Source: Balneolales bacterium ANBcel1
GTDB lineage: Bacteria; Bacteroidota; Rhodothermia; Balneolales; Natronogracilivirgulaceae
Direction: 5' to 3'
Assembly: GCA_029688905.1 (NCBI GenBank)
Contig: JARULB010000004.1
Coordinates: 62,001-126,000 of the forward strand
DNA: 64,000 nt
Shown: one piece after another, positions 4,353 through 27,983 of the stretch
How positions within the stretch are numbered: the stretch's first letter is position 1
How the letters are laid out: each line of letters begins with the position of its first letter
Position numbers and translations under genes: made by a program
Notes under the pieces: generated by a model
The model's database searches: none
What the model was told of the DNA's origin: nothing
What the model saw: the letters and a program-made list of their open reading frames with translations, nothing else

Positions 4353-5918
4353 TCAATACGAGAGTTCGGTACTGATGCCGAACGCCTCCGGATCCAGTCC
4401 AAGCATTTCAAGTTCGTGGCGTACGATGAATGTGCTCAGCAACTCCAGATCGTGGATCTGCAGCATGTGCATTGACCCGTCACGGACGAAATGATGTCCC
4501 GGATGACCGGCATTTTCCAGCCAACTGAGGTCTACCTGCCCCGGATAGAAGACGGGGATCTCGTACCACTCCGGGTCGGCCTCATGCAACGGTCCATCTG
4601 TGTACCTTGCCTGTATTACCGGATTGGCATCCGGGTATTGTGTCGATGGCGGATTGTCCGGATCCCTGAAAGCGACCCGGTAAGGCACCGAAACATAATG
4701 CCATCGAGCGCCGGCGCCATCGGTGTGTACGGCAAACGCGACGTTGTAGGAATTCCCGTCGGCAATGGGTTTGCTGTCGATGGGGCCCGGGGCATCCAGG
4801 GTCCGTGTGATGGAAATATTCCAGTAGCCTTCGCTCCAGTAGCCATTTGCCTTCAGGGCACCACGACTCCCCTCCGGTTCCCGCAGGAAGCGATGAGGCA
4901 GCGCGTCCCCGTCCTGCCAGTCAATATCCGGATCGAATGGAGCAGCGTTGCCCTTATACAAAAAATAGGGATCATCCTGGGTGTACAGGCGGTCCACCAG
5001 ACTGTCTTTGCGAAGCGCATGCCGGTTGACGGTTCGCACATCAAACATGTACCGGGGCTGCCCCGTGTCGTCGGTGTTATCGGTGTACATGGAGGTGCCT
5101 TCGGATCCGTGCCGGTAATCGAGGACATACCCGTTGTCGGCATACCCGAGCGGGTTCGAACGATGTGCCCGCCACTGCCATAAATCGAGAAAGGCCCCCT
5201 TTTCGCGCAACTCATCCAGCTCATCCTGCGGCCGTACCTGTGCCCAGTGGTGCCCGCCGTCCATCTCCTGCTCCCTGGACTCTCTGATGTACTTTCTAAC
5301 GTCAGAGCGGCCCATTGTTTCGCCCAGGTGGGGATGCGCTTCAACCTCTTGCGCCGATGCGGCATCCGTCATGGACCGCATGCCGGGGTGCACCGTAACA
5401 AATCCGCCGATTTCAGCAAACCCTTCAACCGACCCGTCGTCCAGCATCATGGAAAAGCGATCTTCGTAGAGCCCGTGGACATCCGGACCCTGGCCTCCGC
5501 TGCCATACCGATTCCAGGTGCCATCCTCATAGACCAGATACTGGTGATACCACGAGGGCCTGTCGGTCGCATATCGGAAATGCACACGGACCGAGTCCCT
5601 GTTGTAGGTAAATGCAACATCAAGTGAGCGGACAAGATCCTCTTTTGCAGGGATGTACACATTGCGGTCATGATCCACATAAAGTGGGCTGGATGGAGCC
5701 AGAGCGGGGGTATCATACTCTGCGGAAAAAGCTTCGCCGGGTGCGCCGCTGCCCGTTTCACCGGGGATGTCTTCGCTGCCGGATCGGTCCGGCCTGTCCT
5801 CACACCCGGCTGATGTCAGAGCCAGCATCAGGATGAGCGCAAGACCCGACAGCCGGGAAGAAGTAAAAAAAACAGATGTTTTTATACGGATAATGAATAG
5901 CATGATTTTTCGGAACAT
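4353..5918 (-). CDS. Lipoprotein with ethylbenzene-dehydrogenase-type heme-binding domain
   Basis: 521 residues. A signal sequence ends in a lipobox (LTSAGC, Cys39), followed by a low-complexity Gly/Ser/Asp linker. The body resembles the EB_dh domain (gamma subunit of ethylbenzene/DMSO dehydrogenases, cytochrome c-552-like): an early 'VHFRYATDRPSWYHQYLVYED' region, 'YEDRFSMMLDD', and the characteristic 'DLWQWRAHRSNPLGYADN'. Such domains bind one b-type heme and pass electrons in the periplasm. No molybdoenzyme or iron-sulfur subunit is adjacent, so this would be a stand-alone heme lipoprotein. The heme ligands (usually Met/Lys or His) cannot be assigned by eye. ATG at codon 6 is an alternative start. 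Confidence 0.65.
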   Translation of the reverse strand: MFRKIMLFIIRIKTSVFFTSSRLSGLALILMLALTSAGCEDRPDRSGSEDIPGETGSGAPGEAFSAEYDTPALAPSSPLYVDHDRNVYIPAKEDLVRSLDVAFTYNRDSVRVHFRYATDRPSWYHQYLVYEDGTWNRYGSGGQGPDVHGLYEDRFSMMLDDGSVEGFAEIGGFVTVHPGMRSMTDAASAQEVEAHPHLGETMGRSDVRKYIRESREQEMDGGHHWAQVRPQDELDELREKGAFLDLWQWRAHRSNPLGYADNGYVLDYRHGSEGTSMYTDNTDDTGQPRYMFDVRTVNRHALRKDSLVDRLYTQDDPYFLYKGNAAPFDPDIDWQDGDALPHRFLREPEGSRGALKANGYWSEGYWNISITRTLDAPGPIDSKPIADGNSYNVAFAVHTDGAGARWHYVSVPYRVAFRDPDNPPSTQYPDANPVIQARYTDGPLHEADPEWYEIPVFYPGQVDLSWLENAGHPGHHFVRDGSMHMLQIHDLELLSTFIVRHELEMLGLDPEAFGISTELSY

Positions 5919-6323: not shown

Positions 6324-6893
6324 ATGATATACAACCTACAAACTTCAATATTTTCGATACTGGCACTCCTTGTGTTAGTGAGTGCTTGCAGTTCTACCTC
6401 TGCAGTTGAGGATACCGGCCCTCAGTTACCGGACTGGTACATGAATCCTCCCGAGGATACTGCGGAATATCTCTACTCTATCGGTGAGGCTGAATCCCAA
6501 AGACGTGGAACCGCAATTGACCAGGCAAGTATCAGCGCGCAAGGAGCGATGGCACAAAAGCTGGAAACCGTGGTAGAGGGTATGCAAAAATTATTTGAAG
6601 AAGAAATCACCTCCGGTGAAGAAGCCAATTACCGCGAAGCCTGGACCAACGTAACACGAGCGATCACCCAACAACAACTTCGGGGTGGTTCAGTGATTCA
6701 GCGGGATTTTATGGTTAATGATGATACGGGGAGATATGAGGCCTTTGTTCTCTATCGTTTGCCTGTTGGCGAGGCCAGGTCTCAATTGGAGAACTCCCTG
6801 TCCTCGGAGGAAGAGCTCTACACCAGATTTCGTGAGTCACAGGCCTTCCAGGAAATGGATCAACGGATTCGGGAGCTATCCGGAGGCAACTGA
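6324..6893 (+). CDS. LPP20-family lipoprotein
   Basis: 189 residues. Lipoprotein signal with Cys at LLVLVSACSS (lipobox VSAC), then the LPP20 opening 'LPDWYMNPPEDTAEYLYSIGEAES', followed by a conserved helix (AIDQASISAQGAMAQKL) and a C-terminal coiled helix rich in Glu and Arg. LPP20 domains occur in Helicobacter Lpp20 and in FlgP of Vibrio; they are outer-membrane-associated and their biochemical role is mostly unknown. The same domain opens the protein at 13250-15112, so the cell makes two forms, one short and one with extra C-terminal domains. The gene is a single unit ending in a strong terminator. Confidence 0.8.
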   Translation: MIYNLQTSIFSILALLVLVSACSSTSAVEDTGPQLPDWYMNPPEDTAEYLYSIGEAESQRRGTAIDQASISAQGAMAQKLETVVEGMQKLFEEEITSGEEANYREAWTNVTRAITQQQLRGGSVIQRDFMVNDDTGRYEAFVLYRLPVGEARSQLENSLSSEEELYTRFRESQAFQEMDQRIRELSGGN

Positions 6894-6925
6894 CGGGAAG
6901 TATTTGCATGCCGACAGCTTCAGTC

Positions 6926-6961
6926 AAGAGCCTTAATCTGCGGATTACGGCTCTTTTTTTT
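6926..6961 (+). terminator. Rho-independent terminator after the LPP20 gene
   Basis: AAGAGCC (6926-6932) pairs with GGCTCTT (6949-6955); the stem is extended by TAATC/GATTA around a TGCG loop, and a run of eight T follows (6954-6961). Confidence 0.88.
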
Positions 6962-7072
6962 GCCCGCTCACTTCCGCTGCTCCAGTCACGATCGATATCC
7001 CCTCTACTCCGGGCAAACCGGAGCACAGCCTGTAGGCCTCACATTCATGAAAACCGGCCAGTCACACTGCGC

Positions 7073-9520
7073 TCATGCCGGGACACGGCCGTGATCCATG
7101 TCCGCGCGCTGGCGGCGCTCGGTTTCGTTAGTATCCCAGGTTTTTCCACAGAGCATACAGTTGAAGAAGTCCTGATAGTAGTAGGTGTAGGAATACCTGG
7201 GCCTGTCTTCGTAGTGATATGTAACGGTGTCACTGAACATGCTTGTGCTCTTGCCGGTGTAAACCCGATCATAGCTGACCGAGCGGTCGTATCCCAGATA
7301 CAATGAACCCAGAATATTGGCGGATTTCCATATGCGGCAGTCCGTGCATCGCGAGGCATGCAGATACTCACTGCCCTGCTGGCCCATCCGCAGAAAGAAA
7401 AAGAAGAGGAAAATGCCGTACAAGGTGATGACGAAGTTGCTGTAGCTGATGTCAAGGACGGCCATGCTTGTAAAGAAGAAAGCGGTGAAACCGGCAGCCA
7501 GCAGCAACCACATCACCAACTTGAGGAAGGCGTTAGGCAGACGTGTGGTTTTCCCCAGCAGGTAGATCAGGGGCCATGTCAGTAGCAGCGGCAGGCCGAA
7601 AATACTGTACAGAACCACAAGCGCCAGGCCAATGAAGATCAGAATGACGATGATGTGCACAATCCATCCCACTCCACGGGACCAATCCTTAAGCTGGTCA
7701 AGGCGACCTGTGATCCAGTCGGTTCCAACGGGAGTGAACCAGGGAGGGGACTGCAGGAAGAGATTGGGCAGGCCTGCTTTCTGGACATGATTGATGGCCG
7801 TCATTTGATCAATAGGCCTGGTTTCGGTTTCACCCTGACCCACAATTCGGGTTACCTGATCGTTTTCCATAATCACGGCCGTCCTGTTCCATCGCTGCCC
7901 CTGCTCGACAACCATTACGCGAGGAAACAGGTAGACCGTCTGCCCGGTTTCACGGTCATCCAGCCGTCCCAGAGGCACACCCAGTCGCCGGGTTACCTGG
8001 TTGATATCGGCGCCCTGCAACAACTGCTCCAACCTTTCCCGCTTGTAAAGACGCTGATTTGACGCGTTCACAGTGGGCAAGCTGATCGCGGTCAGGTCTC
8101 TGCGCATGACCCTGTTTTGTACATAGGCCACGTTGCCGCCATCAGTCAGCCGAACTCTCTGTCGCTGTGTACTGAAATCACTGATATTGGAAAGGTTAAT
8201 AGCTCGTGCACCGTTTTCACCCACTTCACCCATGTCGGCAGTTCCCTGCGGTTCTCTGTACAGCCTGGTGCCGGGGGGCAGGGTCACGTGATAATAGCGG
8301 TCAATAGCGCTGTAGGGCAAAAGCCCTCGCTGTCCGTCAGCCAGCTCCACCAGAATATGGCGTCGGTACCTGGCAACCGGCTTGAGCTCGGCACCCCGGG
8401 GTACGGACGTTTCGATCACACGGTCGCCTTCGGTAAATTGGCACATAGAGATGAAACTGGTGGCCTCGTGGGCACGTAAAGTCTCATCGACCACCGGAGG
8501 CGGCCCCGGCACTTGTTCGTATTTTGATATTACGGCACCGATGGCCACCACCGCTACCAGCGCAACCCCTCCCAGCATGACAAAAAGCTTCATCGGAAAG
8601 CGGTGCCGGATGGAGTACAAGGTGTACTGGGCCAGCGGATGAATTCGTTTCGCAGGATCCTCTTCCTCCCACTCATACTCCTCTTCTTCTTCGCCGGTAT
8701 CCTCTAGCGATGACGCCATCATTCCGAGCAACTCCCTGGCTTCCGGTTCGCCCAGTTCGATGGCTTTTTCAACGTGGCCAAGCGCTTCCTCTTTACGATC
8801 GTTGGCAATAAGCATACGGGCAAGATTCAGATGGACCTCTCCCTGCTGGTCGTCGTACGCCAGTGACTCCTGCAAGGCAGCAATGGCCTCTTCCGGCTCT
8901 TCGCCGAGAAATTTGGCCAACCCGTAAGAATAGTACCTCCTGGCATTATCCGGTTGGGCCTCGATAGCTTTCCGGTAATAGGGATACGATTCCTCGTAGC
9001 GCTCGAGCATGCGCAGGCACTCGGCAATGATAAAATTCTCACTTTCCTCCGGCTCCTTTTCAGCCGCCCTGAGAAGAAGATCCAGAACGGTTTCCCAGTC
9101 AGGGTCGTCAAAATTGTGGGCAACAACCCCGCGTAGTGTCAACACGGCAGGATCATCCTGAAACTCCTCGCTGATCCTGTCCAGTGTCTCATACGCTTCA
9201 TGATACTCCTGCTCATGGTAGAGTGTATAGGCATAGGCGTAATATTCATCATCCGTCATTTCAACTTCATCGCCCGCCTCCCGATACCACTTGAGCGCCT
9301 CTTCAAACCGGTAGGCTTTAAAATGGCAGTAGCCCATTAGGGCTTTCAGCTGGTTTGCAAGCTCCTCGCCGGTTAGTTCATCCTCAAGTGCCTGCCGGGC
9401 ATATTCCAGTGCCTGTTCGTATTCCTCGGCCTCAACGGCCTCTGAAGCCTTTTGAAAAAGTTCAAGCGGATTCGATTCCGGATCGTCCCCGGACAATGGT
9501 TCCTGGTGATCATCAGTCAT
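7073..9520 (-). CDS. TPR protein with membrane segments, SH3-like region and C-terminal zinc ribbon
   Basis: 815 residues. Residues about 20-265 are TPR repeats (ALEYARQALED, ALKWYREAG, SYPYYRKAIEAQPDN, ALGHVEKAIELGEPE). A very acidic linker (EEEEEYEWEEED) leads to a transmembrane helix at about 310-333. A probable periplasmic SH3-like module follows (PRGAELKPVARYRRHILVEL, GQRGLLPYSAI), then about four hydrophobic helices (about 640-745) and a C-terminal tail with two CxxC pairs (CTDC, CMLC) that look like a split zinc ribbon. ATG 9520 is preceded by AGGGAGGG, so I prefer it to an ATG 21 codons upstream. No family is recognised. It is divergent from the envelope operon at 10139, so a joint role is possible but unproven. 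Confidence 0.75.
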   Translation of the reverse strand: MTDDHQEPLSGDDPESNPLELFQKASEAVEAEEYEQALEYARQALEDELTGEELANQLKALMGYCHFKAYRFEEALKWYREAGDEVEMTDDEYYAYAYTLYHEQEYHEAYETLDRISEEFQDDPAVLTLRGVVAHNFDDPDWETVLDLLLRAAEKEPEESENFIIAECLRMLERYEESYPYYRKAIEAQPDNARRYYSYGLAKFLGEEPEEAIAALQESLAYDDQQGEVHLNLARMLIANDRKEEALGHVEKAIELGEPEARELLGMMASSLEDTGEEEEEYEWEEEDPAKRIHPLAQYTLYSIRHRFPMKLFVMLGGVALVAVVAIGAVISKYEQVPGPPPVVDETLRAHEATSFISMCQFTEGDRVIETSVPRGAELKPVARYRRHILVELADGQRGLLPYSAIDRYYHVTLPPGTRLYREPQGTADMGEVGENGARAINLSNISDFSTQRQRVRLTDGGNVAYVQNRVMRRDLTAISLPTVNASNQRLYKRERLEQLLQGADINQVTRRLGVPLGRLDDRETGQTVYLFPRVMVVEQGQRWNRTAVIMENDQVTRIVGQGETETRPIDQMTAINHVQKAGLPNLFLQSPPWFTPVGTDWITGRLDQLKDWSRGVGWIVHIIVILIFIGLALVVLYSIFGLPLLLTWPLIYLLGKTTRLPNAFLKLVMWLLLAAGFTAFFFTSMAVLDISYSNFVITLYGIFLFFFFLRMGQQGSEYLHASRCTDCRIWKSANILGSLYLGYDRSVSYDRVYTGKSTSMFSDTVTYHYEDRPRYSYTYYYQDFFNCMLCGKTWDTNETERRQRADMDHGRVPA

Positions 9521-10138
9521 AATTCCCTCCCTGTCAGTTTGCCGGTTCTCTTTCGGTTGCCGGACGGACGGGCTCCCATCCACCCAGTCTCATTTAGTCA
9601 CGGCTCCTCTTCCTGTCATTTAACACCCCTTCATAACATGAAGCCAATAAATAATCCGATCATCAGGCCGCAAGCTCCGTAATAATTTCATGGCAGCCTG
9701 ACTCAATATGCTACAAATTACTTTTTTGCACAATAACTTTCGGCGGTTCTTGTCGGGCGGCCTGCTCGGGATAAACCCGGTCTCTCCCCGGCCTGATGTA
9801 TCCGCGACGTGTGTGCTAGGTCATGCAGCCCTGACAAGTGTTTCTATTTCCGAGAATCATCAAGAATCGCTCCTGCAGGAAAAGAGTTATCGCCCGTGGA
9901 CGGAACCGCAGACGTTTCACCTATTTGCTTGTGCCGTGGCGGGATCCGCAAAAAAGTATAATGAGGCAGATCTTTCAGGCGCTTCACTAATTTAATTGTG
10001 CCATGGCAGGTCGTTTTATATATTGGATAAGGGGTATCAGCAAGAGCTTGCATCATGTCCCTGGGTCCAGCGTATTATTTTTGGCCACGGGATATCATCA
10101 CCATTATTATTGCCAATAAACGCCGGGGGAGTATTACC
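9521..10138. other. Divergent intergenic region upstream of the envelope operon
   Basis: 618 bases between the divergent TPR protein and barrel genes. Short open frames on both strands (9452-10056) lack signal peptides and family features and are treated as chance. A possible promoter for the plus-strand operon is listed separately. Confidence 0.4.
9996..10024 (+). promoter_or_regulatory. Possible sigma-70-type promoter for the envelope operon
   Basis: TTGTGC (9996-10001) and TATATT (10019-10024) lie 17 bases apart, matching 4/6 and 5/6 of the consensus. Transcription would start near 10031, about 108 nt before the chosen ATG at 10139. Confidence 0.4.
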
Positions 10139-11884
10139 ATGAAAGTGGCAGGCGTATTGCTTTTCATTTTATTTGCTGTTCAAACTACCGCTGTTTCCAG
10201 GTCTGGTGACTACAAACGCAGTGCTATTTCGAGTGTGGAATCTGTCTGGATCAAGCCGGGCGCGAATATCGACATGCCGCTGGACTTCGAATTCTTCGAA
10301 TCCATGATGGGCCTTTATGTTGAGATGCCCCGTTTTGATTACAATGAACTTCCCGACGCGGTGGTGGACCGGTTCAGGAACAGGGTATCACGCATGAACG
10401 TGATTGATGAGCAGGACCTGGCTGAGTTGTTGCAGGAAACCGTTGGAGAGGCTATCCTCGACATCCTCAATGACCCGGAGATCATGAAGAGCCGCGGACT
10501 GGCCCTGCGAGACGAGTCGGCTTGGCAGACCTTCGCAGCCACCCGTGCCAGGTCGGTCGGCCTTACGGTCGAGGAACTTGAGCTCCTGATGAACTCATCC
10601 TATGTGTACCTGCCCTATGTCAGTTCCATTACGGTTTCGCTGTCCAGGGCGGAAGCCGGATCTTCGCCTGGCCGGAGCTTCTTGCGCGCGCTTCAATCCG
10701 ATGATCAATCCGCGGAAACTCAAAGAAGCTCAACTACCGCTTACAATTCGGTGCGGATCGAGGGGGGTATTATCTGGTTCTCGGTGAATATTTGCCCAGA
10801 CGGGGAGGTATCCATCTCGGAACTGCTGAATGTTACAGCCGGTGCCGGTGGGCGTGCCGAAAGGGGAAGAGAGCACACCTTCCGGGTCGGCAATGACACC
10901 TGGGAAGTCAATTCACGGACCTATGCCCTGTACGAGGCTACACAGAACTGGGTACGCCAGCTGGGTGTAGAAACCAGAGGCATTCCCGAGTTTCAGCTGA
11001 GGGGCAGCATTGTGGAAGTCCTGTCCGGCAGAAACTACTCACTGGCCCTTGGGCGTGAGGAAGGGGTTTATCTGGATGACATGTATGAACTTGTCGAGCT
11101 TCGGCGGGAATCGGACGGCACGGAATCTGCCGCGACAGTCGGCTATGCCAGGATTACCGATGTAGGTGACAATACCGCCGACCCGTTAAACTACTCGACG
11201 GCAAGTCAGCTTCTTGGCAGAAGGCAGGGAGTCGGGATCATCGCGCGCGAATACCCGCGGATCGGGTACGACCTGAGAATAACCATGGGGATTTCGGACG
11301 GTCTGCTGATACCGGCCTCGGAAATCGGCTGGCTGCTGAGTGATGTCACGCGCACATATGACCTGAACCTGAGCTATGCCTATAACCTTGCGCCTGTGAC
11401 CGGAATCAGCCAAAGCTTCCTGTCCATCGACATCGGACTCGGGTTTCCCGTCGATTATGACCGGGCACCCGCTTTTGACGACGGTTCGCTGCTGTTACTT
11501 GATTTCTACCTGGGCTATACAAAGAAATTCTGGTTTGCCGGCCGAAACAATATCGGTCTTCGTTTCGGTGCCGGCCTTGATGCCATGCGTATGAGTGCCG
11601 GCGACGACAACAGCCTCACGCTGTTTTCGGCTGGAGGCCGTGCGTCACTGGACTATGAACTGCTACTCGGACCTGCCTGGAGTTTCAGTATCGGGGCAGG
11701 ATACAAGATGGCCACACGGCCGCTCCAGGCTTCAATGGAAGTGGACGGAGAGTCCGGCGAGTTTCTGGTGGAAGAGAGTGAGATAGACCTTGGCGGCGTC
11801 TTTTTTACCGCCGGTATCACCTACTCTATCCGTAATACCGGACTCAATCTTTTCGGGTTCCTGGATGGCTTCCGATCCAATTGA
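10139..11884 (+). CDS. Exported protein with FlgT-like segment and C-terminal outer membrane barrel
   Basis: 581 residues. Signal peptide (VAGVLLFILFAVQTTAVS), then about 250 residues of mixed alpha/beta with 'YVYLPYVSSITVSL', then a segment 'GSIVEVLSGRNYSLALGREEGVYLDDMYELVEL' that resembles the C-terminal domain of FlgT or similar fluid-exposed modules ('G..V.L..G...G...D..Y.L'). Residues about 390-581 are amphipathic beta strands suggestive of an outer membrane barrel. ATG 10139 has GGGGGAG upstream and starts directly at the signal peptide; an upstream in-frame ATG at 10055 would add 28 unlikely residues. First gene of an operon with the next two. The FlgT comparison is by eye and tentative; there are no flagellar genes here. 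Confidence 0.65.
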   Translation: MKVAGVLLFILFAVQTTAVSRSGDYKRSAISSVESVWIKPGANIDMPLDFEFFESMMGLYVEMPRFDYNELPDAVVDRFRNRVSRMNVIDEQDLAELLQETVGEAILDILNDPEIMKSRGLALRDESAWQTFAATRARSVGLTVEELELLMNSSYVYLPYVSSITVSLSRAEAGSSPGRSFLRALQSDDQSAETQRSSTTAYNSVRIEGGIIWFSVNICPDGEVSISELLNVTAGAGGRAERGREHTFRVGNDTWEVNSRTYALYEATQNWVRQLGVETRGIPEFQLRGSIVEVLSGRNYSLALGREEGVYLDDMYELVELRRESDGTESAATVGYARITDVGDNTADPLNYSTASQLLGRRQGVGIIAREYPRIGYDLRITMGISDGLLIPASEIGWLLSDVTRTYDLNLSYAYNLAPVTGISQSFLSIDIGLGFPVDYDRAPAFDDGSLLLLDFYLGYTKKFWFAGRNNIGLRFGAGLDAMRMSAGDDNSLTLFSAGGRASLDYELLLGPAWSFSIGAGYKMATRPLQASMEVDGESGEFLVEESEIDLGGVFFTAGITYSIRNTGLNLFGFLDGFRSN

Positions 11885-11946
11885 ACACATATCGACAGTG
11901 GCTTCCCGCCATATCCATTTTTTTGATATTAACAATTAATCTCTGA

Positions 11947-13239
11947 ATGATGAAAAAACGGACAATAGCCCCCTTCCTTTTTCTTGTATTGTTCAGTATT
12001 ACGGCGCAGGCAGTGGCTCCTGACCTGCCGGTTTCGCGTCAGGCAAGGCTGGTGGAACGCACCTCGCCGGCCGAGGTGATGATCGAAGCAACCGGGATCT
12101 ACCGATCTTCCGAGTCACGTTCCCGAAGGATAGAGAGAGACCTTAATGACAATGGTGTGACCATGGCCACCCGGGATGCAAAAAAGGCAGCCGTCTGGTT
12201 CCTGCTTTTTGGCTCCACCGATCCCATGCTTTCCACCGATGATGCCCGGAACCGGTTTCGCCCTTATGAATCCCATTTCTTCGACCTGGACCATATTGAG
12301 CAGTGGATCGCGTGGGAACAGACGGGGCTGGTCGAAAGGGTCCGGACTGTCGATGGAACGGGCCTGCAGATCACAAAACGATTCCGCATCAACACCGAAA
12401 TGATTAACAGCGAGCTTGAGCGTTTCCGTATCATTGAAGCGCGCTCGGACCTGACCGAGGCCATCGGCCGGCCCTTCGTCATGGTCCTGCCTCAGACCGC
12501 ATCCAACCAGAGCCCGATCGAACTGCTGCAAAGCGATCAGTATATCCGCCATGCCGCTGCTGTTGTGGAAAGCTTTCTCACCTCCCGGCTCTACGATGTG
12601 GTCGTCCCCGAACAGGTAAGCGGACTAGACCAGATGATTTCGGCCCTGAACCTTGTGGAAGGTCAACAGGAAGACTACGCCTACCAGATTGCGCAGCAAA
12701 TCGGCAGCGATATCTACATCACGTTTTCGAGTACGGAGGAAGATGCGGGGTTCGGCACAACCCGTACATCCATGCTGGTTCGCGCATTTGAAACCACAAC
12801 CGGACGTCTGCTCGGAACCGAGACAGGATACAGCCAGGGACGGCGCGGGGAGCGTTCCGTATCCATCGAGGAAGCTATGAACGACGCCATAGACAAGGTG
12901 CTTTCCCGCATTAACAACTACTGGGTAGATGACATGAGCCGGGGGATTCAGTACAAGATAGTGCTCAATATCCCCGACTTTTTCAGCCGTGACGACATAG
13001 AGGATATTCAGTTCGCCTTTATGGATGCCGTGGACGCCATCACCCGATCTTCACGGGAGAACATTGCCACCAGCCGAACTCTCGATTATCTGATCTGGTG
13101 TGACCCTGGTGAATATGCCAACTCCAGAAATGTTTACCGTTCTCTTATGCGCGAATTCAACCGTTACGGCGGCATCGGGCGCATCCGTTCTGTGACCATC
13201 AATCGAAAACTCCTCGTACTGGAAGTGGATCGGGGATAA
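11947..13239 (+). CDS. Exported DUF6175-like (CsgG/FlgO-like fold) protein
   Basis: 430 residues with a signal peptide (APFLFLVLFSITAQAVA). The central part reads like the ABA-type fold of CsgG/FlgO/DUF6175 proteins: 'RPFVMVLPQTASNQSPIELL', a helix 'AAAVVESFLTSRLYDVVVPE', 'AYQIAQQIGSDIYITFSS', then 'TSMLVRAFETTTGRLLGTETG'. This arrangement (conserved name-the-protein strand, helix, Asp/Ile strand, then 'a.e..tg...g') is shared with outer membrane lipoprotein assembly factors, though this one is not a lipoprotein. The gene lies 62 nt after the barrel gene and 10 nt before the next, so the three are one transcript. The function is unknown. Confidence 0.65.
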   Translation: MMKKRTIAPFLFLVLFSITAQAVAPDLPVSRQARLVERTSPAEVMIEATGIYRSSESRSRRIERDLNDNGVTMATRDAKKAAVWFLLFGSTDPMLSTDDARNRFRPYESHFFDLDHIEQWIAWEQTGLVERVRTVDGTGLQITKRFRINTEMINSELERFRIIEARSDLTEAIGRPFVMVLPQTASNQSPIELLQSDQYIRHAAAVVESFLTSRLYDVVVPEQVSGLDQMISALNLVEGQQEDYAYQIAQQIGSDIYITFSSTEEDAGFGTTRTSMLVRAFETTTGRLLGTETGYSQGRRGERSVSIEEAMNDAIDKVLSRINNYWVDDMSRGIQYKIVLNIPDFFSRDDIEDIQFAFMDAVDAITRSSRENIATSRTLDYLIWCDPGEYANSRNVYRSLMREFNRYGGIGRIRSVTINRKLLVLEVDRG

Positions 13240-13249
13240 TTCATTGCTC

Positions 13250-15112
13250 ATGAAAAAAACTGTCATATCCATCCGCTATCTGTTTCTCTGCATGATGACC
13301 GTTGCGGCCGGGCACCTGTTCCTGCTTGCCGGAGGGAATTCCTTTGCCCAGATACCGGACTGGTACCTTGAGGGCCGAAGCATGCACTACCCCGCCGACC
13401 TCTATATTGTGGGCATGGGTGAGGGCGACACACTGGAAGAGGCCGCAGGTCAGGCCAGGACTTCACTCGGTGCCCAGATACGGGTCAGGGTGGAGTCGGA
13501 AATCACCTCTATTGTCACAGAAATGGACAGAGGTGACCGCAGTTCGTTTGAGTCCATGTACCGCAATGAAAGCACATCCCGCATCGACGAACAGCTTCCA
13601 GGGGTGGAGATTGCGATGCAGGGCGAGCATGCCGGCCGTTACTACGCTCTGGCCGCCCTCGACAGACAGCGGTATGTCAGGGAGTTGCATTCGGAGCTGG
13701 ATCGTCTTCGTGAGAGCTACGATGCCATGGTTGAAAGCGGGCGCAATCATATACGGCAGGGACAGATAACTACGGGAATCAATGCGCTGCTGGAAGCGCA
13801 GGGGCAGGCCTCAGAGTTCTATTCGGCCTTGTCAACCCACAACGCCCTTGCGCACAGATCATACGGAAGTGGCGATATTCTGGGCGTGGCAAGGCTTGTT
13901 CCCGAAATCCGGGAAACGCTCGCTTCAGTGCGCCTTTCGGTGAAATCCGGAGACGAACAGGCCGGTGTTCCCGGCAGGCAACTCGCCGAACCGATTGTAT
14001 TCAGTGCAGTCTACAAGCAGAACGGCCGGGAGGTGCCGGTATCCAGTCTGCCTCTGCTGGTGGCATATCAGGATGGAGGTGAGGCTGACAGGGTGACAAC
14101 CGACGCGGAAGGCCTGGCATCGGTACATCTGACAGCCATGCGGATTCGGGGGGAAATGAACAGAATTACGGCAACAGCGTCATTTTCGGAGATCCCCCCG
14201 GTATTTCGAAGTATGGTTCGCGATATTTCGGTCCGTGCAAACTACCGTATCTCCGATACCGACAGAATTCCGGTGGCCGTGGTCGTTACCGATGAAGCCG
14301 GAAGGAGGCATGCCGGAAGCGAGCAGCGACTTGGAAGTGTGGTTGAACGTTTGGGATACCGTCTCAGCGACGCGTCCGGAGTGGTTTTGGAAGGCAGCCT
14401 GGGGCGGGTCGATTCCCGCGAGGTTGACGGTTTGGACGGCCGCCAGTTCGTGGTGCGCTCGGAGATGAACCTTATGATCAGGCAGCGTTCAGACAATTCC
14501 GTGGTGGGTTCGCTCGAGGCCCGGGGAACCGGAATGAGCCACAGAAGCGAGTCGGATGCATTGAACGCTTCGCTGAACCGGCTCTCCATCGACCGGCAGG
14601 ATTTGGCCAGGGCACTTGCCGGTGTGACCATGGAGATGGCCATGGCCGAACACGGAAGCCCGCCTTCAGCAGTACGGGAACAGCGAGACAGACACGAAGC
14701 CCCGGCAGGGACGGGACGTGAGTCAGGGGGGCGGCTGCCCAAAACAACCATCGACGATTTTACATTTGAAGTGCACTCGGCTTCCATGACACCCGATAAC
14801 AGGGTCATAGTGGAGGTGATGATTACAAATCACGACCACAGGGATCGCAACACCCGTTTTTCACGCCGATTGTTCATCATGTACGATCAGGAAGGAAGAG
14901 AAGTCACAGGTCCGGCTATTTCCGTGGCCTCCAGCAGTACCGTAAGGGGCTGGGGTTTCGACCATCTGATTATCCCGGATGTGCCGGTAAAAATGACCAT
15001 CGAATTCAGGGATGTCCACCCCGAAACCAACGTGATTACCTTGTTGTCATTCCGGGCCGGCAGCACCGATGTGCGCCTTCGCGATATCCCGCTGATAAAA
15101 TCATCCCGCTGA
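13250..15112 (+). CDS. Exported LPP20-domain protein with C-terminal Ig-like domain
   Basis: 620 residues. Signal peptide ends near NSFAQ; the mature protein opens 'IPDWYLEGRSMHYPADLYIVGMGEG', the LPP20 motif also seen at 6324-6893. A helical region (DRQRYVRELHSELDRLRESY) follows, then beta domains at about 240-330 and 340-450, and a final Ig-like module at about 490-620 (FTFEVHSASMTPDNRVIVEV). It has no lipobox, unlike its shorter relative. ATG 13250 is used; a TTG at 13244 is two codons upstream. Third gene of the envelope operon. Proteins with this LPP20 plus extra beta domains occur in several phyla without assigned role. Confidence 0.7.
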   Translation: MKKTVISIRYLFLCMMTVAAGHLFLLAGGNSFAQIPDWYLEGRSMHYPADLYIVGMGEGDTLEEAAGQARTSLGAQIRVRVESEITSIVTEMDRGDRSSFESMYRNESTSRIDEQLPGVEIAMQGEHAGRYYALAALDRQRYVRELHSELDRLRESYDAMVESGRNHIRQGQITTGINALLEAQGQASEFYSALSTHNALAHRSYGSGDILGVARLVPEIRETLASVRLSVKSGDEQAGVPGRQLAEPIVFSAVYKQNGREVPVSSLPLLVAYQDGGEADRVTTDAEGLASVHLTAMRIRGEMNRITATASFSEIPPVFRSMVRDISVRANYRISDTDRIPVAVVVTDEAGRRHAGSEQRLGSVVERLGYRLSDASGVVLEGSLGRVDSREVDGLDGRQFVVRSEMNLMIRQRSDNSVVGSLEARGTGMSHRSESDALNASLNRLSIDRQDLARALAGVTMEMAMAEHGSPPSAVREQRDRHEAPAGTGRESGGRLPKTTIDDFTFEVHSASMTPDNRVIVEVMITNHDHRDRNTRFSRRLFIMYDQEGREVTGPAISVASSSTVRGWGFDHLIIPDVPVKMTIEFRDVHPETNVITLLSFRAGSTDVRLRDIPLIKSSR

Positions 15113-15178: not shown

Positions 15179-16447
15179 CTATTCCGCCGAAAGCCATTCC
15201 CGATAACTGGCACGGCGTTCGGTTACTTTCTGCAGATAGTCCCTGGTTTCCTCCCAGGGCAAGTTTTCAATCAGGTGGTTGTAGTTTTCTTCAGGAGACA
15301 TCTCATTGGCAATCGTCACCGCCCGGTTGATATTGGTGTTGCCGGTGTAGGCCCGGGCAACATTTCCGGCTCCGGTATTATAGGCACTGATGGCCATGTA
15401 CTCCAGCACCCTTGGAGAAGTTACACCACGGATATACTGATTTGTGAGGATGTCATAATACGTACATCCGAATAGAAGGTTGTTATTCGGGTCGAAAAGA
15501 AGGTCAGGGCTGGGAATGCCGTCCTTGTTTCGAAGTCTGCGATAGACGTCACGCCCTGCGGTATTCGGGACGATCTGCATGAGGCCAAGTGCATTGGCAT
15601 GTGAACGCGCTACCGGGTTGAAATAGGATTCGGTGTGGATGATGGCCAGGATAAGAGCCGGATCCTGTTCGTAGCGTCCGGTATTTTCGGCAAGGTATTT
15701 CTGGAACTTCTCCGCACGCGTTCGAATGTGGTCCGGGACCAGGGACAGGTTCACACGCAGTATCTGTCGAACCTCCTCGCTGTTTCTGGATTCCAGTTGC
15801 GCCTCTTCGGCAGCTCTCTGCGCGAGTCCGGCGATGTCGTCGGCATCACCCAGATCCAGCTGACCTTCAAGAACCGGTTCCTCATAAATCTCCTCGTCAT
15901 CTTCGGGCATTTCGCTGCGTGTGCCCCTGCTTTCGGCCAGATCCACTACAGATTCCCTGATTTTCTCCCGCAGTATTTCCTCGGTATCACCCTCTTCCGC
16001 AAGAACTTCCACCTCCACGGATCCCTCCTCGAAGTCGACATCCCAGCGGACGGTCCCCCCGCTTCGGTACTCTACCCAGTTTGTCTTCGTTCGTTCGCGG
16101 AAATCACCCCACCGGCGCTCCATCTCCTCGCGAAAAGCCTCGAACAGTGCCTGCTGCTCGGCACGATATTCCTCAAATGCGACTTCATCCAGGATCATGC
16201 CTTCCCGTTCAAGATCACTGAACTCCTCGAAAGCTTCGCGCTGCTGCGCCTGGAACTCCTCAAAGGTCTGCTGGGCCACCAGTTGAGGCGGGGAAAAAAG
16301 AAACCCCGATATCATGAGTATCATGGCGGTTGCAGCAGCTGTCCCTTTTGCAGCGAACGGGTTACATGCTCTCGGCCGCGCATTGGACGGCACTGCATCA
16401 CCTTTGTTCATCGCATCAGGTATGATAGCTGATTTCAGTAATTTCAT
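15179..16447 (-). CDS. MltC-like lytic murein transglycosylase
   Basis: 422 residues. After a signal segment (residues about 37-60) comes a charged helical region (EEFQAQQREAFEEFSDLER) and a domain like the MltC N-terminal region (TNWVEYRSGGTVRWDVDFEE). The catalytic SLT domain spans about 270-415: 'ALILAIIHTESYFNPVARS' with the catalytic Glu in HTES, 'NALGLMQIVP', and 'YNTGAGNVARAY'. It cleaves the glycan strands of peptidoglycan with formation of 1,6-anhydro-muropeptides, in the periplasm. The long N-terminal stretch before the hydrophobic segment is unusual, but GGAGGACCC directly precedes ATG 16447, so I keep this start. No lipobox is visible, unlike enterobacterial MltC. Confidence 0.85.
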   Translation of the reverse strand: MKLLKSAIIPDAMNKGDAVPSNARPRACNPFAAKGTAAATAMILMISGFLFSPPQLVAQQTFEEFQAQQREAFEEFSDLEREGMILDEVAFEEYRAEQQALFEAFREEMERRWGDFRERTKTNWVEYRSGGTVRWDVDFEEGSVEVEVLAEEGDTEEILREKIRESVVDLAESRGTRSEMPEDDEEIYEEPVLEGQLDLGDADDIAGLAQRAAEEAQLESRNSEEVRQILRVNLSLVPDHIRTRAEKFQKYLAENTGRYEQDPALILAIIHTESYFNPVARSHANALGLMQIVPNTAGRDVYRRLRNKDGIPSPDLLFDPNNNLLFGCTYYDILTNQYIRGVTSPRVLEYMAISAYNTGAGNVARAYTGNTNINRAVTIANEMSPEENYNHLIENLPWEETRDYLQKVTERRASYREWLSAE

Positions 16448-18467: not shown

Positions 18468-18541
18468 TGGGCCCGGAGGGACTTGAACCCCCGACCAATC
18501 GATTATGAGTCGACTGCTCTAACCAACTGAGCTACGGGCCC
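18468..18541 (-). tRNA. tRNA-Ile2 (CAT anticodon, lysidine-type)
   Basis: A 74-nt cloverleaf: acceptor GGGCCCG/CGGGCCC, D arm GCTC/GAGC, anticodon stem GTCGA/TCGAT around CTCATAA, T arm GGGGG/CCCTC with TTCAAGT. The 3' CCA is not encoded. The CAT anticodon could mean Met, but the body (AGAGCA then GACTCATAATCG, TTGGTCG, TTCAAGTCC) closely matches bacterial tRNA-Ile2, in which C34 is changed to lysidine by TilS so that it reads AUA. Confidence 0.85.
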
Positions 18542-19971: not shown

Positions 19972-21180
19972 TTAAAAATGGCTGACAAGACCGGATTTCC
20001 GGTTCAGAACCCGACCCAGATACCCGACCAGCAAAAACCCGGAAAGCATGGTGGCGACACCGCCATACATCGATCTCCGCCCATCCTTGAGCCTTTGATC
20101 GTGCTCCGGAGATCGCCACTGCGGCCAGTAGGGCCGGCTGCTGACCAGGTGCCGGCTGACCTCCCTGATCTCCACCTCCTGCCGCCCCGGCGGATCATCG
20201 GGATTGATGATGTCCCCCAGCTCCGTGTAGGAGGGACGGCTGCGATCGGGCTCGTCCACCCTAAGCGCCTGCACCTCCGGATCGTCCAGCGGCGCCGTGC
20301 GACTGAGTACAATCTCGGTGTATTCCCGCTCCTGATAAGGCCAGACGACATACAGCGATCCGGCCATGAACCCGACCAGCAGGCAGAGTGTCATGATATG
20401 AAACCGCTTGAGCAGCCAGGAGAGCAGCCTCACAAACAACACCAGGCCGACTATCATGCCCAACCCGAACGGCACCAGGATCATGAACGCCTCAATCGTT
20501 CGGTCTGTGCCGAGCAGCGCGATATTCCCCAGTATGTGGTCGTATTGACGCAGTATCAACAGAATAAATGAACCTGAAATCCCGGGCAGAACCATCGCGG
20601 TTATGGCAAGACTGCCACTTAGAAAGGCAAAGAGCGATGTTTCCGGAGTGCTGGTGGGCACCAGCGTGACGATGCGCAGGCCAATCAGAAATCCGATGAA
20701 AACAATCAGCGCCTCCCGCCACCTTATGTCACCTATCGCTTTGAGCAGCAGCATGATTGAACCCGAAATCAGTCCGAAGAAGAGCCCGTAGACGATTTCC
20801 GGATGGGTGTGCATGAGTACCGGCAGCGGTACGATACTGGTGAAGAAGTAGACGGCGGAGACCCCGCCCAAAAAAACCGATATCAGAAATTTCCAGTGAA
20901 CACCCTCAAAGAACTCGCCCCACTGAAACGTAATGAGACGGCGTATGGCCGGCAGATCGACACTTCGGATACCAAAAATCAGGCGGCTGTATATTCCCAG
21001 AATGAGCGCCATCGTCCCGCCGCTGACGCCCGGAACCACATCGGCCGAACCCATCACAAACCCCTTCAGATAGAGGAACGGCATCTCCCCCGGCCTGGTC
21101 AGATCTTTCTCCGGGATGCCGGTCTCCGCCGAAGAAACCTGCTCCTGTTCACGTTCCTTGTTCTCCGATGTTTCGGCCAT
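19972..21180 (-). CDS. DUF368 polyprenyl-phosphate flippase (PopT-like)
   Basis: 402 residues, polytopic. The DUF368 signature 'KGFVMGSADVVPGVSGGTMA' is at about residues 40-60, and a second GVSG-like motif, 'MVLPGISGSFILLIL', occurs near 200. Members were shown in 2022 to return undecaprenyl phosphate across the cytoplasmic membrane for reuse in wall and surface-glycan synthesis. An unusual ~90-residue soluble insertion (from 'REYTEIVLSRTAPLDDPE' to 'PYWPQWRSPEHD') sits before the last membrane helix. The alkaline or saline habitat suggested by this genome fits reports that DUF368 proteins matter under alkaline stress, but that link is inference. Confidence 0.88.
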   Translation of the reverse strand: MAETSENKEREQEQVSSAETGIPEKDLTRPGEMPFLYLKGFVMGSADVVPGVSGGTMALILGIYSRLIFGIRSVDLPAIRRLITFQWGEFFEGVHWKFLISVFLGGVSAVYFFTSIVPLPVLMHTHPEIVYGLFFGLISGSIMLLLKAIGDIRWREALIVFIGFLIGLRIVTLVPTSTPETSLFAFLSGSLAITAMVLPGISGSFILLILRQYDHILGNIALLGTDRTIEAFMILVPFGLGMIVGLVLFVRLLSWLLKRFHIMTLCLLVGFMAGSLYVVWPYQEREYTEIVLSRTAPLDDPEVQALRVDEPDRSRPSYTELGDIINPDDPPGRQEVEIREVSRHLVSSRPYWPQWRSPEHDQRLKDGRRSMYGGVATMLSGFLLVGYLGRVLNRKSGLVSHF

Positions 21181-25014: not shown

Positions 25015-27741
25015 TTATTCCAGCCAGGCCGACTCCACCGAGAATCCGTACCGCTCGCCGGCGACATCCGCTTCTGTGCCCGTAGTATCTATGTAGAACT
25101 GGATTTCCTCAATTCTGTGCGGCCGTACCGGTCCGGGCACCCCCGTGGCATACCACACCTCCATAATGGTGGGGAAAGCTCTGGGCAGGAGCATGTATCT
25201 GTCGGGTACAAACGAGTCCAGCGGGATACGATGCTCGCGAAGCGAACCGTCCACCGGCACCGGAGCACTGTAGGAGTTGGCGTCATCATCCACCAGAATC
25301 ACTTTGAGATCGGCCGGCAATGCATAGTCCGTTCCCGCGCGAACTACCAGATACTCATAGGAATCCAGCGTGGAGCGGGTAATCCCGGCGATATGGTCTG
25401 CGATGAAGGTGGAGTAGCCCAGAACGTGCCTTCCTTCGGTCGGTTGTGTTGTGGAGACGCTCCGGACCATCTGTCCGGCCCGATCGCCGGAAACCAGCTC
25501 CATCCGGTTCTCGTTGCTTCCCCAGGTCGAAAAGGCCTCGAAGGTGTCGTGGTGACGCCTGCCCGCGTTCCAGATTTCGAGCGGTGCGCCTGTTTCAACG
25601 ACATGGGTCTGCCACGCTTCGTCGTAATAGAAGTTCCAGCGCCAGGGCGCGCTCGGGTTACCGCCCGGGAATGTGAGGTACTCGTGATCGCCTTCCCGCT
25701 GAATCACAATCCAGTACCGGACCGCACCTGGGGTCATGGATGCCGCCGGAATGGCTGCTCGATATTCGTAGGGCCGGACCTCCTCCATTTCAATGCGCTG
25801 CGGTGGCCCAGCAAACGGATTGACTTGCAGCAGCACCGTGTCGCCCTCCTTCAGTCCGACCACATCGGCCGAGACCTCCAGCGGTACTCCGGCTTCCGCC
25901 TGACCATGGGGACGATGCCAAACAGCCGGTTCTTCGGCATTGGCGGGTACGGCATGGTACTCGCCGATCCTGATATTGCCCATGGGGCTGTCGGGTCCCC
26001 ACCGGTCGCCGGAAACTCCATCGCGAGTGAGCAGATAGGCGCCCGGAGCGATGGTAACCGCTCCGTCTCCGGCCTGGCCGCGGAAATCGTTGCCCTCATT
26101 GAGTCCCCTGACGGCAAACGAACCGCCAAGATCTGACAGGCGGATTTCCAACGGATGCGCGCGCCATTCGATATGAGTTACGTATTTATCGTAATCGGGG
26201 GCTTCAAACGGGTCACGGACCGGGATGGCGTCGGGCAGTACCTCCAGGCGCCAGACTCCGTCATCCAGCTTGTCCAGCAGATAGGCGCCCCGCCCCGGGT
26301 ACGATACCACCGGGGAGGAACCGACCCCCGCAATCCGCTCCAGAGCCGCCTCGTTGCGGGGTTCCGTATCGGTATTATTGGAATAGAGGAAGGCGGTTTC
26401 GGCATTCATTTCGCTGAGGTCCAGGTGGTGGCTCATGCGAAAATCCCCGAAAATGGTGTCGGCGGGATAATCGTCGAATGACTCACCGAGTCCGGTCTGA
26501 CGAAAGACTTCGCCCGCAATGATCATACTTACCGCCCGGCCTGGCGTGTAGACCAGGTTCAGGTAGTGCGACCGCCAATCGGTATTCAGATGAGCGATCC
26601 CCAGCGCCGTGTATGCGAAATGGGCGGCAAACTGCATCTCGGCCTCACGGAAACCGCGAGCCGACATCGGCAGGGAGTAGTTGTTGAGGTTGTCGGCCGG
26701 ATCAAATTCGTAAATCATCTTAGCCATGTTCCGATAGCGCTCGTCGTCCTCGAACGGCACCGTAAAATGGTTGACAAAAGGAAAGTAATTGGAACGCTTT
26801 TCCACCCCTTCGTACAGTCCGGCGGGATACCACTGAAAGGTGACCCCGTCGATACGGGTGTCGAGCTTGGCGTCGGTCAGCTGGAAGTTGTGCGAAATAT
26901 TATAGAAAATGGGCTTGTCCCAGCCGGATTCGCGCAGGTGATCGGCCAGGGTGTTAATGAATTCCCTGGTTTGATCGGCGCCCCGGTGGGTGGGCTCGTT
27001 ATCGATTTCCAGGGCGATGATGTCGGGATCATCAATGGCGCTCAGGCCGGTGTAGGGGTTGACATGGTGGATCAGCTGCTCGAGATAGTTCATGATCACC
27101 GGCCAGTATTCCGGATTTTGCGGCGCTTCGCCTTTTGTGATATAGTTGGCAAATCCGGGCGGTTGTGTGATGTTGCCGTCGGGCCAGCCCGCATCGTAAT
27201 AGATGGTCGGTGTGAGGATGGTCTTGATGCCCCGCTCGCTCATCTTGTATATGGAGTAGTCGTGGAGGTCAAGATGATGATTCTGTAGCAGGTTGCCCAG
27301 ACTGTCGGTAATCTCTATTTCATAGAGATGTGTGCGGAAGGCATCCATCCCCATGCGGGCCAGGTGGTATATATCCTCATCGATCGCCTTTTTGTGATCA
27401 TGGCCCATGAATGTGAGCCCCCGGTAGGTCTGTGAAAACGGCGCATAGTAATTGACCCCGAACAGATTCACCTCATCGCCCGTCTTCTCCCAGTACATCA
27501 CCCCGTCTTCGATATAGACCCCGCCGGTTTGTGTCCCGGAAGCGGCCGCATTGTCCGACGAAACCCGGCTTTTCGCTTGTTGCGAGTCAGCGGAGGCGTG
27601 CTGTGATGCAGCATGGGTGGATGGTTCCTGCGGATGCGATGTGGAGGAAGCACCGGCACAGGAGAGAGCCGGCGTCCCCATCAGAAGCAGGAAAAGAAAA
27701 CCGGAGGCGATGAGGGAGTCCGTTCGGATAACATGTTTCAT
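25015..27741 (-). CDS. Secreted clan GH-A glycoside hydrolase, paralogue 1
   Basis: 908 residues. Export signal (SGFLFLLLMGTPALSCAG; possibly a lipoprotein at Cys28) and a Ser/Ala-rich linker, then a TIM barrel at about 75-470. Two glutamates fit the clan GH-A pair: Glu249 in LEIDNEP (acid/base) and Glu345 in KMIYEFDPAD (nucleophile). Beta domains follow (RDPFEAPDYDKYV region; 'VSADVVGLKEGDTVLLQVNP') and a C-terminal jelly-roll-like module (about 760-908) that may bind sugar. The protein is about 50% similar by eye along its length to the product of 34716-37316. It resembles GH5/GH2-type barrels but I cannot assign the family number. Position beside galK and the symporter implies a beta-galactoside substrate. 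ATG 27741 starts at the signal; the frame extends 56 codons further upstream. Confidence 0.75.
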   Translation of the reverse strand: MKHVIRTDSLIASGFLFLLLMGTPALSCAGASSTSHPQEPSTHAASQHASADSQQAKSRVSSDNAAASGTQTGGVYIEDGVMYWEKTGDEVNLFGVNYYAPFSQTYRGLTFMGHDHKKAIDEDIYHLARMGMDAFRTHLYEIEITDSLGNLLQNHHLDLHDYSIYKMSERGIKTILTPTIYYDAGWPDGNITQPPGFANYITKGEAPQNPEYWPVIMNYLEQLIHHVNPYTGLSAIDDPDIIALEIDNEPTHRGADQTREFINTLADHLRESGWDKPIFYNISHNFQLTDAKLDTRIDGVTFQWYPAGLYEGVEKRSNYFPFVNHFTVPFEDDERYRNMAKMIYEFDPADNLNNYSLPMSARGFREAEMQFAAHFAYTALGIAHLNTDWRSHYLNLVYTPGRAVSMIIAGEVFRQTGLGESFDDYPADTIFGDFRMSHHLDLSEMNAETAFLYSNNTDTEPRNEAALERIAGVGSSPVVSYPGRGAYLLDKLDDGVWRLEVLPDAIPVRDPFEAPDYDKYVTHIEWRAHPLEIRLSDLGGSFAVRGLNEGNDFRGQAGDGAVTIAPGAYLLTRDGVSGDRWGPDSPMGNIRIGEYHAVPANAEEPAVWHRPHGQAEAGVPLEVSADVVGLKEGDTVLLQVNPFAGPPQRIEMEEVRPYEYRAAIPAASMTPGAVRYWIVIQREGDHEYLTFPGGNPSAPWRWNFYYDEAWQTHVVETGAPLEIWNAGRRHHDTFEAFSTWGSNENRMELVSGDRAGQMVRSVSTTQPTEGRHVLGYSTFIADHIAGITRSTLDSYEYLVVRAGTDYALPADLKVILVDDDANSYSAPVPVDGSLREHRIPLDSFVPDRYMLLPRAFPTIMEVWYATGVPGPVRPHRIEEIQFYIDTTGTEADVAGERYGFSVESAWLE

Positions 27742-27864
27742 GATCAAGGAGTTATTGAAATAGGATATGTTGGATGTGTTTCCAGCCTCCGCAGCTGCTG
27801 CAGCGAGGCCCGATTGGGTTTGTCCGTTGTTCGGGTACCGCCGGCGGAATAACATGTGGATTTT

Positions 27865-27890
27865 GGGATGCGGCTTTCCGCCTGCATCCC
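27865..27890 (-). promoter_or_regulatory. Intercistronic hairpin, galK to GH-A gene
   Basis: GGGATGC (27865-27871) and GCATCCC (27884-27890) pair perfectly around a 12-nt loop with an inner CGG/CCG. It lies 124 nt upstream of the GH-A start codon in the 242-nt gap after galK. No T-run follows. Confidence 0.55.
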
Positions 27891-27983
27891 CACGATACAC
27901 CAGGATCATACCGGTGATGGCCCGGAGAGTATTTGTGTGAAGCCGGCCCCGTTGCCACCGGCTTGAATCACGAAACCCGGGAC

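Follow-up and report, generated by a model that had tools for sequence, protein, structure and literature searches.

A conserved operon for a FlgT-like barrel protein, a DUF6175 protein and an LPP20 protein: a possible outer-membrane ring or disk in Balneolales and other phyla

FlgT, FlgO and the lipoprotein FlgP make up the H ring of the Vibrio flagellum, as described in the available part of PMC6504787. According to the accessible sections of PMC12222027 (2025), FlgP of Campylobacter forms concentric disks and has a fold in common with Lpp20 and FlgT. Here, we analysed a 64,000-nucleotide stretch of contig JARULB010000004.1 of Balneolales bacterium ANBcel1 (hereafter the window; source genome G000, 3.3 Mb), in which a first-pass annotation had proposed a five-part envelope system of similar pieces, encoded by reading frames A to E. 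To our knowledge, outer-membrane rings of the FlgT/FlgP type are known only from flagella. We find that C, D and E form an operon that is conserved in Balneolales, Neomarinimicrobiota, Cloacimonadota and other Bacteroidota, i.e. in at least three phyla, and that the LPP20 lipoprotein A is a further member of the system alongside it; most of the Neomarinimicrobiota loci examined add a protein with two LPP20 regions, F. Since the same kinds of parts as in the Vibrio H ring and the Campylobacter disks recur as C, D, E, A and F, we infer an outer-membrane ring or disk. At about even chances, these proteins make up a single periplasmic assembly that is anchored in the outer membrane and built from modules of the flagellar H/T-ring type, most probably as a ring or disk; it would serve some larger envelope structure as a port or reinforcement, working alongside flagella in some carriers and in their absence in most.

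The open reading frame listing places the five predicted frames where the first-pass annotation had put them. They are given here with their parts and one neighbouring gene:

6324..6893, plus strand: A, small LPP20-family lipoprotein (189 amino acids; PF02169, E-value 3.6e-7)
7073..9583, minus strand: B, TPR/zinc-ribbon membrane protein (TPR repeats by Pfam), excluded from the system
10139..11884, plus strand: C, signal peptide, predicted FlgT-like periplasmic part and predicted C-terminal 8-strand outer-membrane barrel (581 amino acids)
10211..11257, plus strand: C residues 25-373, region aligned to FlgT by VIA-align
11255..11833, plus strand: C residues 373-565, predicted 8-strand barrel (VIA-align)
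11947..13239, plus strand: D, exported DUF6175 protein (430 amino acids; PF19672, E-value 4.9e-10)
13244..15112, plus strand: E, N-terminal LPP20 domain, further domains and variable C-terminal tail (622 amino acids; PF02169, E-value 1.5e-10)
13355..13663, plus strand: LPP20 domain of E, residues 38-140 (Pfam)
15179..16447, minus strand: MltC-like lytic transglycosylase, possible accessory, convergent with E (PF01464, E-value 2.9e-24; PF11873, E-value 2.2e-9)

C, which starts with ATG at 10139, is separated from D by 62 bases and D from E by only 4, in a tight operon at 10139-15112. A promoter and terminator scan returned 11 promoter-like sites against a chance mean of 3.7, which is above chance yet unspecific.

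An AlphaFold model of C was computed from 10 sequences (mean predicted local distance difference test score, pLDDT, 72; predicted template modelling score 0.52) and compared with the PDB by Foldseek. FlgT takes ranks 1 and 2 (E-values 1.2e-6 and 2.3e-6), and barrels follow. Rank 2 is FlgT 3w1e; rank 1 is the 352-residue LPHT ring chain of 8z5n, which its length and the identity of rank 2 indicate to be FlgT. VIA-align superposed FlgT on model residues 25-373 with Z-scores of 9.3 and 9.8 and a root-mean-square deviation (rmsd) of 9.6-9.8 over 228 and 219 residues. So large a deviation would fit domains of C that are individually FlgT-like yet set at a different angle. CsgG reached Z 8.8 to the same model. 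The remainder of the predicted chain, residues ~373-565, is an OmpA-type 8-strand barrel with Z ~17 (up to 17.9) to the barrels of OprF, NspA and OmpA, and the barrel model PF13505 was matched by 8 of the 24 aligned C members at E-values up to 1 (best 2.4e-6). The window C itself matches no Pfam family at E-values up to 1, and no FlgT model was seen among the Pfam matches of the 24 members. Of the FlgT-like barrel protein proposed by the first-pass annotation, the barrel stands in the predicted model, the periplasmic part may resemble the middle and C-terminal domains of FlgT in fold, and a FlgT match by sequence was not found. Sequence profiles of C, D and A gave nothing meaningful against solved structures; the matches of the A profile, such as influenza haemagglutinin, were set aside as chance.

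A and E both exceed the LPP20 (PF02169) cut-off of 25.9 bits, with 31.0 and 41.8 bits respectively, which confirms the two LPP20 proteins claimed for the locus; F of one Neomarinimicrobiota locus, L132, reaches 51.4 bits (E-value 1.5e-13). Profile comparison finds the LPP20 domain common to A, E and F, with two such regions in F. All 19 aligned members of A keep the lipobox cysteine, Cys22. The profile of E matches H. pylori 4kzs ("LPP20 lipofamily protein") with an E-value of 2.5e-10, an entry that we take to be HP1454. The available part of PMC11756786 is a further basis for that identification. Residues ~71-91 of E, after the expected helix, are strongly beta-periodic, and A appears helical there. 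In the LPP20-type family, an insert after that helix correlates with ring formation, as reported in the part of PMC12222027 at hand; the periodicity of E, and not of A, agrees with a ring-forming insert that, as far as sequence can tell, would be present in E only. The C-terminus of E is variable, with PEGA and PA14 domains in one Cloacimonadota member.

D had been annotated as a CsgG/FlgO-like protein. By sequence it is instead a DUF6175 protein (PF19672; 39.4 bits against a cut-off of 23), and the window D gave no match to CsgG (PF03783) or FlgO. Across the family, PF19672 is matched by 26 of 27 D members at E-values up to 1, and CsgG by only one (E-value 0.063). D is also the most conserved part of the system, with 48-52% identity to members in other phyla. 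The fold of D may be weakly FlgT-like: Foldseek of the D model places FlgT at ranks 1-2 (E-values 2.7e-4 and 9.5e-4), with CsgG, PelBC and GNA1162 also among the rows. VIA-align did not confirm this FlgT match; its top rows for D, ribosomal proteins and Argonautes at Z 8.0 or less, were discarded. Profile-profile comparison of D with E gave an unconvincing 4.6% probability, and no paper naming DUF6175 was found in the literature searched.

Conservation was followed first in 59 relatives, a set that, like its counts, includes the source genome itself. D and C have matches in 5 of them, E matches strongly in the same 5, and A in 21. B has a match in 3 at an E-value of 1e-10, its neighbourhood is not conserved, and in the close relative G019 it does not lie beside C; B was therefore rejected as a member, and of the five-part system A, C, D and E remain. 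A scan of named genomes yielded 10 loci from Balneolales, Neomarinimicrobiota, Cloacimonadota and one other bacterium, with 48-88% identity to D. The order C-D-E is kept in all 10, with a 403-amino-acid frame between D and E in L060 and one gene truncated by a contig end in L054, L056 and L060. Of 199 Neomarinimicrobiota genomes 30 have D, as do 16 of 124 Cloacimonadota genomes. In 28 loci with D (20 of the 30 Neomarinimicrobiota loci plus L055-L059 and L061-L063, leaving out the source genome, L054 and L060), E adjoins D in all 28 and C does so in 26, A lies no farther than 9 kb from D in 19, and F is present in 15. Most Neomarinimicrobiota loci examined read C-D-E-A-F; A and F stand ahead of C in L057 and L058. 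In a wider sample of the phylum, 12 of 296 genomes have DUF6175. Of the 11 other than G000, G273 keeps C-D-E, in G171 C and D-E lie within 8 kb, five (G127, G164, G175, G267 and G298) have D-E, G151 has C with D split into two genes, and in G135, G189 and G193 DUF6175 occurs with no C nearby. The neighbourhood holds in relatives, as the proposal of the first-pass annotation requires, and the restriction to one phylum that it had suggested falls.

Several genes near the operon or near A were also noted. G019 has two copies of C on different contigs (L024:221-1969 and L161:1958-3427), 94.7% identical over 490 amino acids. A CHASE2-guanylate/adenylate cyclase gene stands beside C in G007 (L021:3914-6079) and beside A in G016 (L096:10296-12413), and frames resembling it were seen by eye near A in G019 and G053. 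Divergent beside C in L132, a large exported protein (L132:1798-6795) has six Lamin Tail Domain (LTD) stretches, tested in that locus, and frames with the same N-terminal motif occur at 10 of the 28 loci (L132 and nine further Neomarinimicrobiota). The LTD protein may be a substrate of the system or a surface protein regulated together with it.

The relation to flagella is partial. The window had been described as being without any flagellar gene. This is correct for the neighbourhood: no flagellar gene was found by Pfam among the window neighbours scanned, nor noticed by eye beside the operons at other loci. The source genome, by contrast, carries flagellar genes clustered on a different contig, C3. 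Pfam assigns FlgH, FlgI, FliF, FliM, a MotA/MotB pair and one member of the flagellin family there, and the cluster has a match to fliP, which we read here and below as a flagellar export gene; the flagellar stretches L097-L099 yielded no gene resembling LPP20, C, D or E. Nor do the relatives bear out a system unrelated to flagella, as had been proposed: fliP is matched in 5 of 5 D carriers among the 59, against 16 of 54 others (p 0.004), and within the source family in 5 of 5 against 5 of 15 (p 0.016). In Cloacimonadota the figures are 5 of 16 carriers and 6 of 108 others (p 0.006). Over the three phyla the stratified odds ratio is 4.1 (p 3e-5), although kinship among the genomes and the incompleteness of many make these p values too small. 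Genome size is not different, with means of 2.9 Mb for D-bearing and 2.8 Mb for fliP-bearing Neomarinimicrobiota genomes. In genus g9 (10 genomes), the operon occurs in exactly the two genomes with fliP, G016 and G019, an agreement weaker than it appears because they are 74% and 51% complete. Fodinibius/Aliifodinibius (Balneolaceae) are described in the available part of PMC9909488 as non-motile, with incomplete flagellar pathways. Together, these results indicate a multi-phylum envelope system that is enriched with fliP and not dependent on it.

In the assembly that we favour, the barrel of C would anchor C in the outer membrane and hold its FlgT-like part in the periplasm, where D and E would dock onto C. 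Under the membrane, LPP20 domains from E, A and F may be packed side by side, like FlgP in the flagellar basal disk, with A tied to the membrane via its lipid, and the MltC-like enzyme possibly opens the wall for assembly. The whole would be an outer-membrane port or reinforcement, plausibly for the flagellum in flagellated carriers such as the source genome and for some other envelope structure elsewhere. A broader proposal, which we regard as tentative and clearly less probable, is that C-D-E-A-F is a flagellum-independent outer-membrane ring machine across several phyla of the Fibrobacteres-Chlorobi-Bacteroidetes (FCB) group, with a FlgT-like protein anchored by its own barrel; it would descend, together with flagellar H/T rings and basal disks, from one older ring family that flagella recruited more than once.

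A number of results weigh against the favoured assembly. The FlgT match of C comes from one medium-confidence AlphaFold model, with an rmsd of ~10 Å over ~220 residues and TM-scores of 0.15-0.27. The model of D is of low confidence (pLDDT 62), and VIA-align finds nothing above Z 8.0 for it and no FlgT among the 50 rows listed. Neither C nor D has a sequence-level match to FlgT or CsgG in the PDB, none exceeds a Pfam cut-off for them, and profile-profile comparison finds no sequence relation between C and D. As for flagella, 32 of 51 D carriers over the three phyla have no fliP match, against 19 with one, so that a flagellum is indicated in the source genome and not in most carriers; the Neomarinimicrobiota stratum alone gives 9 of 30 carriers against 27 of 169 others (p 0.06); and the co-occurrence test counts related genomes as independent. 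Neither of the outcomes that would have refuted the first-pass proposal was seen: the predicted fold of C, and less clearly that of D, is similar to FlgT, both A and E belong to the LPP20 family, and the gene order is conserved. A ring or secretion function, as the first-pass annotation had suggested, is one that these proteins may have.

Three other explanations were weighed. The genes may encode a dedicated flagellar outer-membrane ring, an H/T-ring counterpart kept apart from the flagellar cluster, in which case carriers without fliP would either have incomplete genomes or have lost the flagellum recently. This would explain fliP in all five carriers among the relatives, the restriction of the operon in g9 to both fliP-bearing genomes and the odds ratio of 4.1, and it suits a source genome that carries the L- and P-ring genes flgH and flgI. 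However, a fliP match is missing from 21 of the 30 carriers in Neomarinimicrobiota and from 11 of the 16 in Cloacimonadota, which we judge too many for missing contigs alone, 16 of 21 fliP-bearing relatives lack the operon, and inspection of the loci by eye showed no flagellar gene next to it; we consider this rather unlikely.

Less probable still is a CsgG-type outer-membrane secretion channel, in which D (and E) would be a multimeric export pore and C its anchor or partner. The Z of 8.8 between CsgG and C, the CsgG, PelBC and GNA1162 rows for D, a CsgG/LpoB-like gene within the DUF6175 cluster of G189 (L156) and the large exported LTD protein, divergent beside the operon and found at 10 of 28 loci, all speak for such a channel, but the single CsgG match among 27 D members (E-value 0.063) and the failure to see a conserved substrate gene in the source genome speak against it. 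We hold in equally low regard a general envelope-stability or peptidoglycan-to-outer-membrane scaffold that is no machine, in which LPP20 and CsgG-like (LpoB-type) folds would control wall enzymes, the MltC-like protein among them. An MltC-like gene does lie beside A in several relatives: it adjoins A in G007, ~4 kb from C, and in G043, and is one gene from A in G020. The LpoB-like match in L156 and the OmpA-type barrel of C would also suit a scaffold. Yet no MltC-like gene was labelled beside the operon among the Neomarinimicrobiota loci listed, the patchy distribution (30/199, 16/124 and 5/59) is unusual for a housekeeping scaffold, and the fliP enrichment would go unexplained.

Proteins of 513-528 amino acids with an MltC-like start and no Pfam transglycosylase domain also adjoin A at L091:8171-9709 and L093:7797-9380. 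Between F and C in L057, a FecR-domain protein (L057:6268-7074) has a Phe-rich repetitive coil resembling the N-terminal coil of the window MltC-like protein. Elsewhere in the window, 4353-5918 encodes a lipoprotein-like protein with an ethylbenzene-dehydrogenase-type haem domain (E-value 8.9e-43) and 19972-21180 a VCA0040-like protein of the undecaprenyl phosphate translocase family (E-value 1.4e-69). Two large proteins of 964 and 866 amino acids (25015-27909 and 34716-37316), beside sugar-metabolism genes, have no Pfam match at E-value 1e-4. The sole RNA gene from an RNA search is a tRNA at 18468-18541.

If the assembly is real, an operon in mostly fliP-less bacteria allows testing whether such rings predate flagella or work without them, and DUF6175 gains a plausible place in an outer-membrane structure. 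The gene set is little known and common to several deep bacterial groups. In the literature searched, the papers combining at least two of LPP20, CsgG and FlgT all concern flagellar motors, judging by their titles, and none was found on the LPP20 family, or on FlgT with FlgP, in Bacteroidetes, nor on the LPHT ring; further titles and abstract openings named nothing like this system.

Among systems within reach of comparison, the DUF6175 clusters of G135, G189 and G193, which we guess to be Bacteroidia, likewise place a DUF6175 protein between small exported proteins, with a CsgG-like gene in one; they differ in lacking C nearby and in a shorter DUF6175 protein preceded by a separate small gene, as in G151. 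CsgG has membrane-spanning hairpins and forms an oligomeric pore. With CsgG-type lipoprotein exporters (CsgG, PelC, GNA1162) the predicted models of C and D appear to have a weak fold similarity, but there is no sequence match over a cut-off and C has a separate barrel domain. The basal disk and Lpp20 proteins of Campylobacter and Helicobacter (FlgP, FlgQ, HP1454/HP1456) are closer, with the LPP20 domain in A, E and F and the match of E to HP1454; the phyla are different and the flagellar linkage here is only partial. We know of no counterpart of C or D in those systems. FlgQ resembles two FlgP repeats in the accessible text of PMC12222027, and F has two LPP20 regions here. Compared with the Vibrio flagellar H/T ring (FlgT, FlgO, FlgP), C ends in a predicted outer-membrane barrel and seems to lack the FlgT-type N-terminal domain, D stands as a protein on its own, the genes lie outside the flagellar cluster and most carriers have no fliP match. 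Like that ring, however, the system combines LPP20-fold proteins, one of them a lipoprotein, with a predicted FlgT-like part and a predicted outer-membrane location, and FlgT heads the Foldseek matches of C among solved structures.

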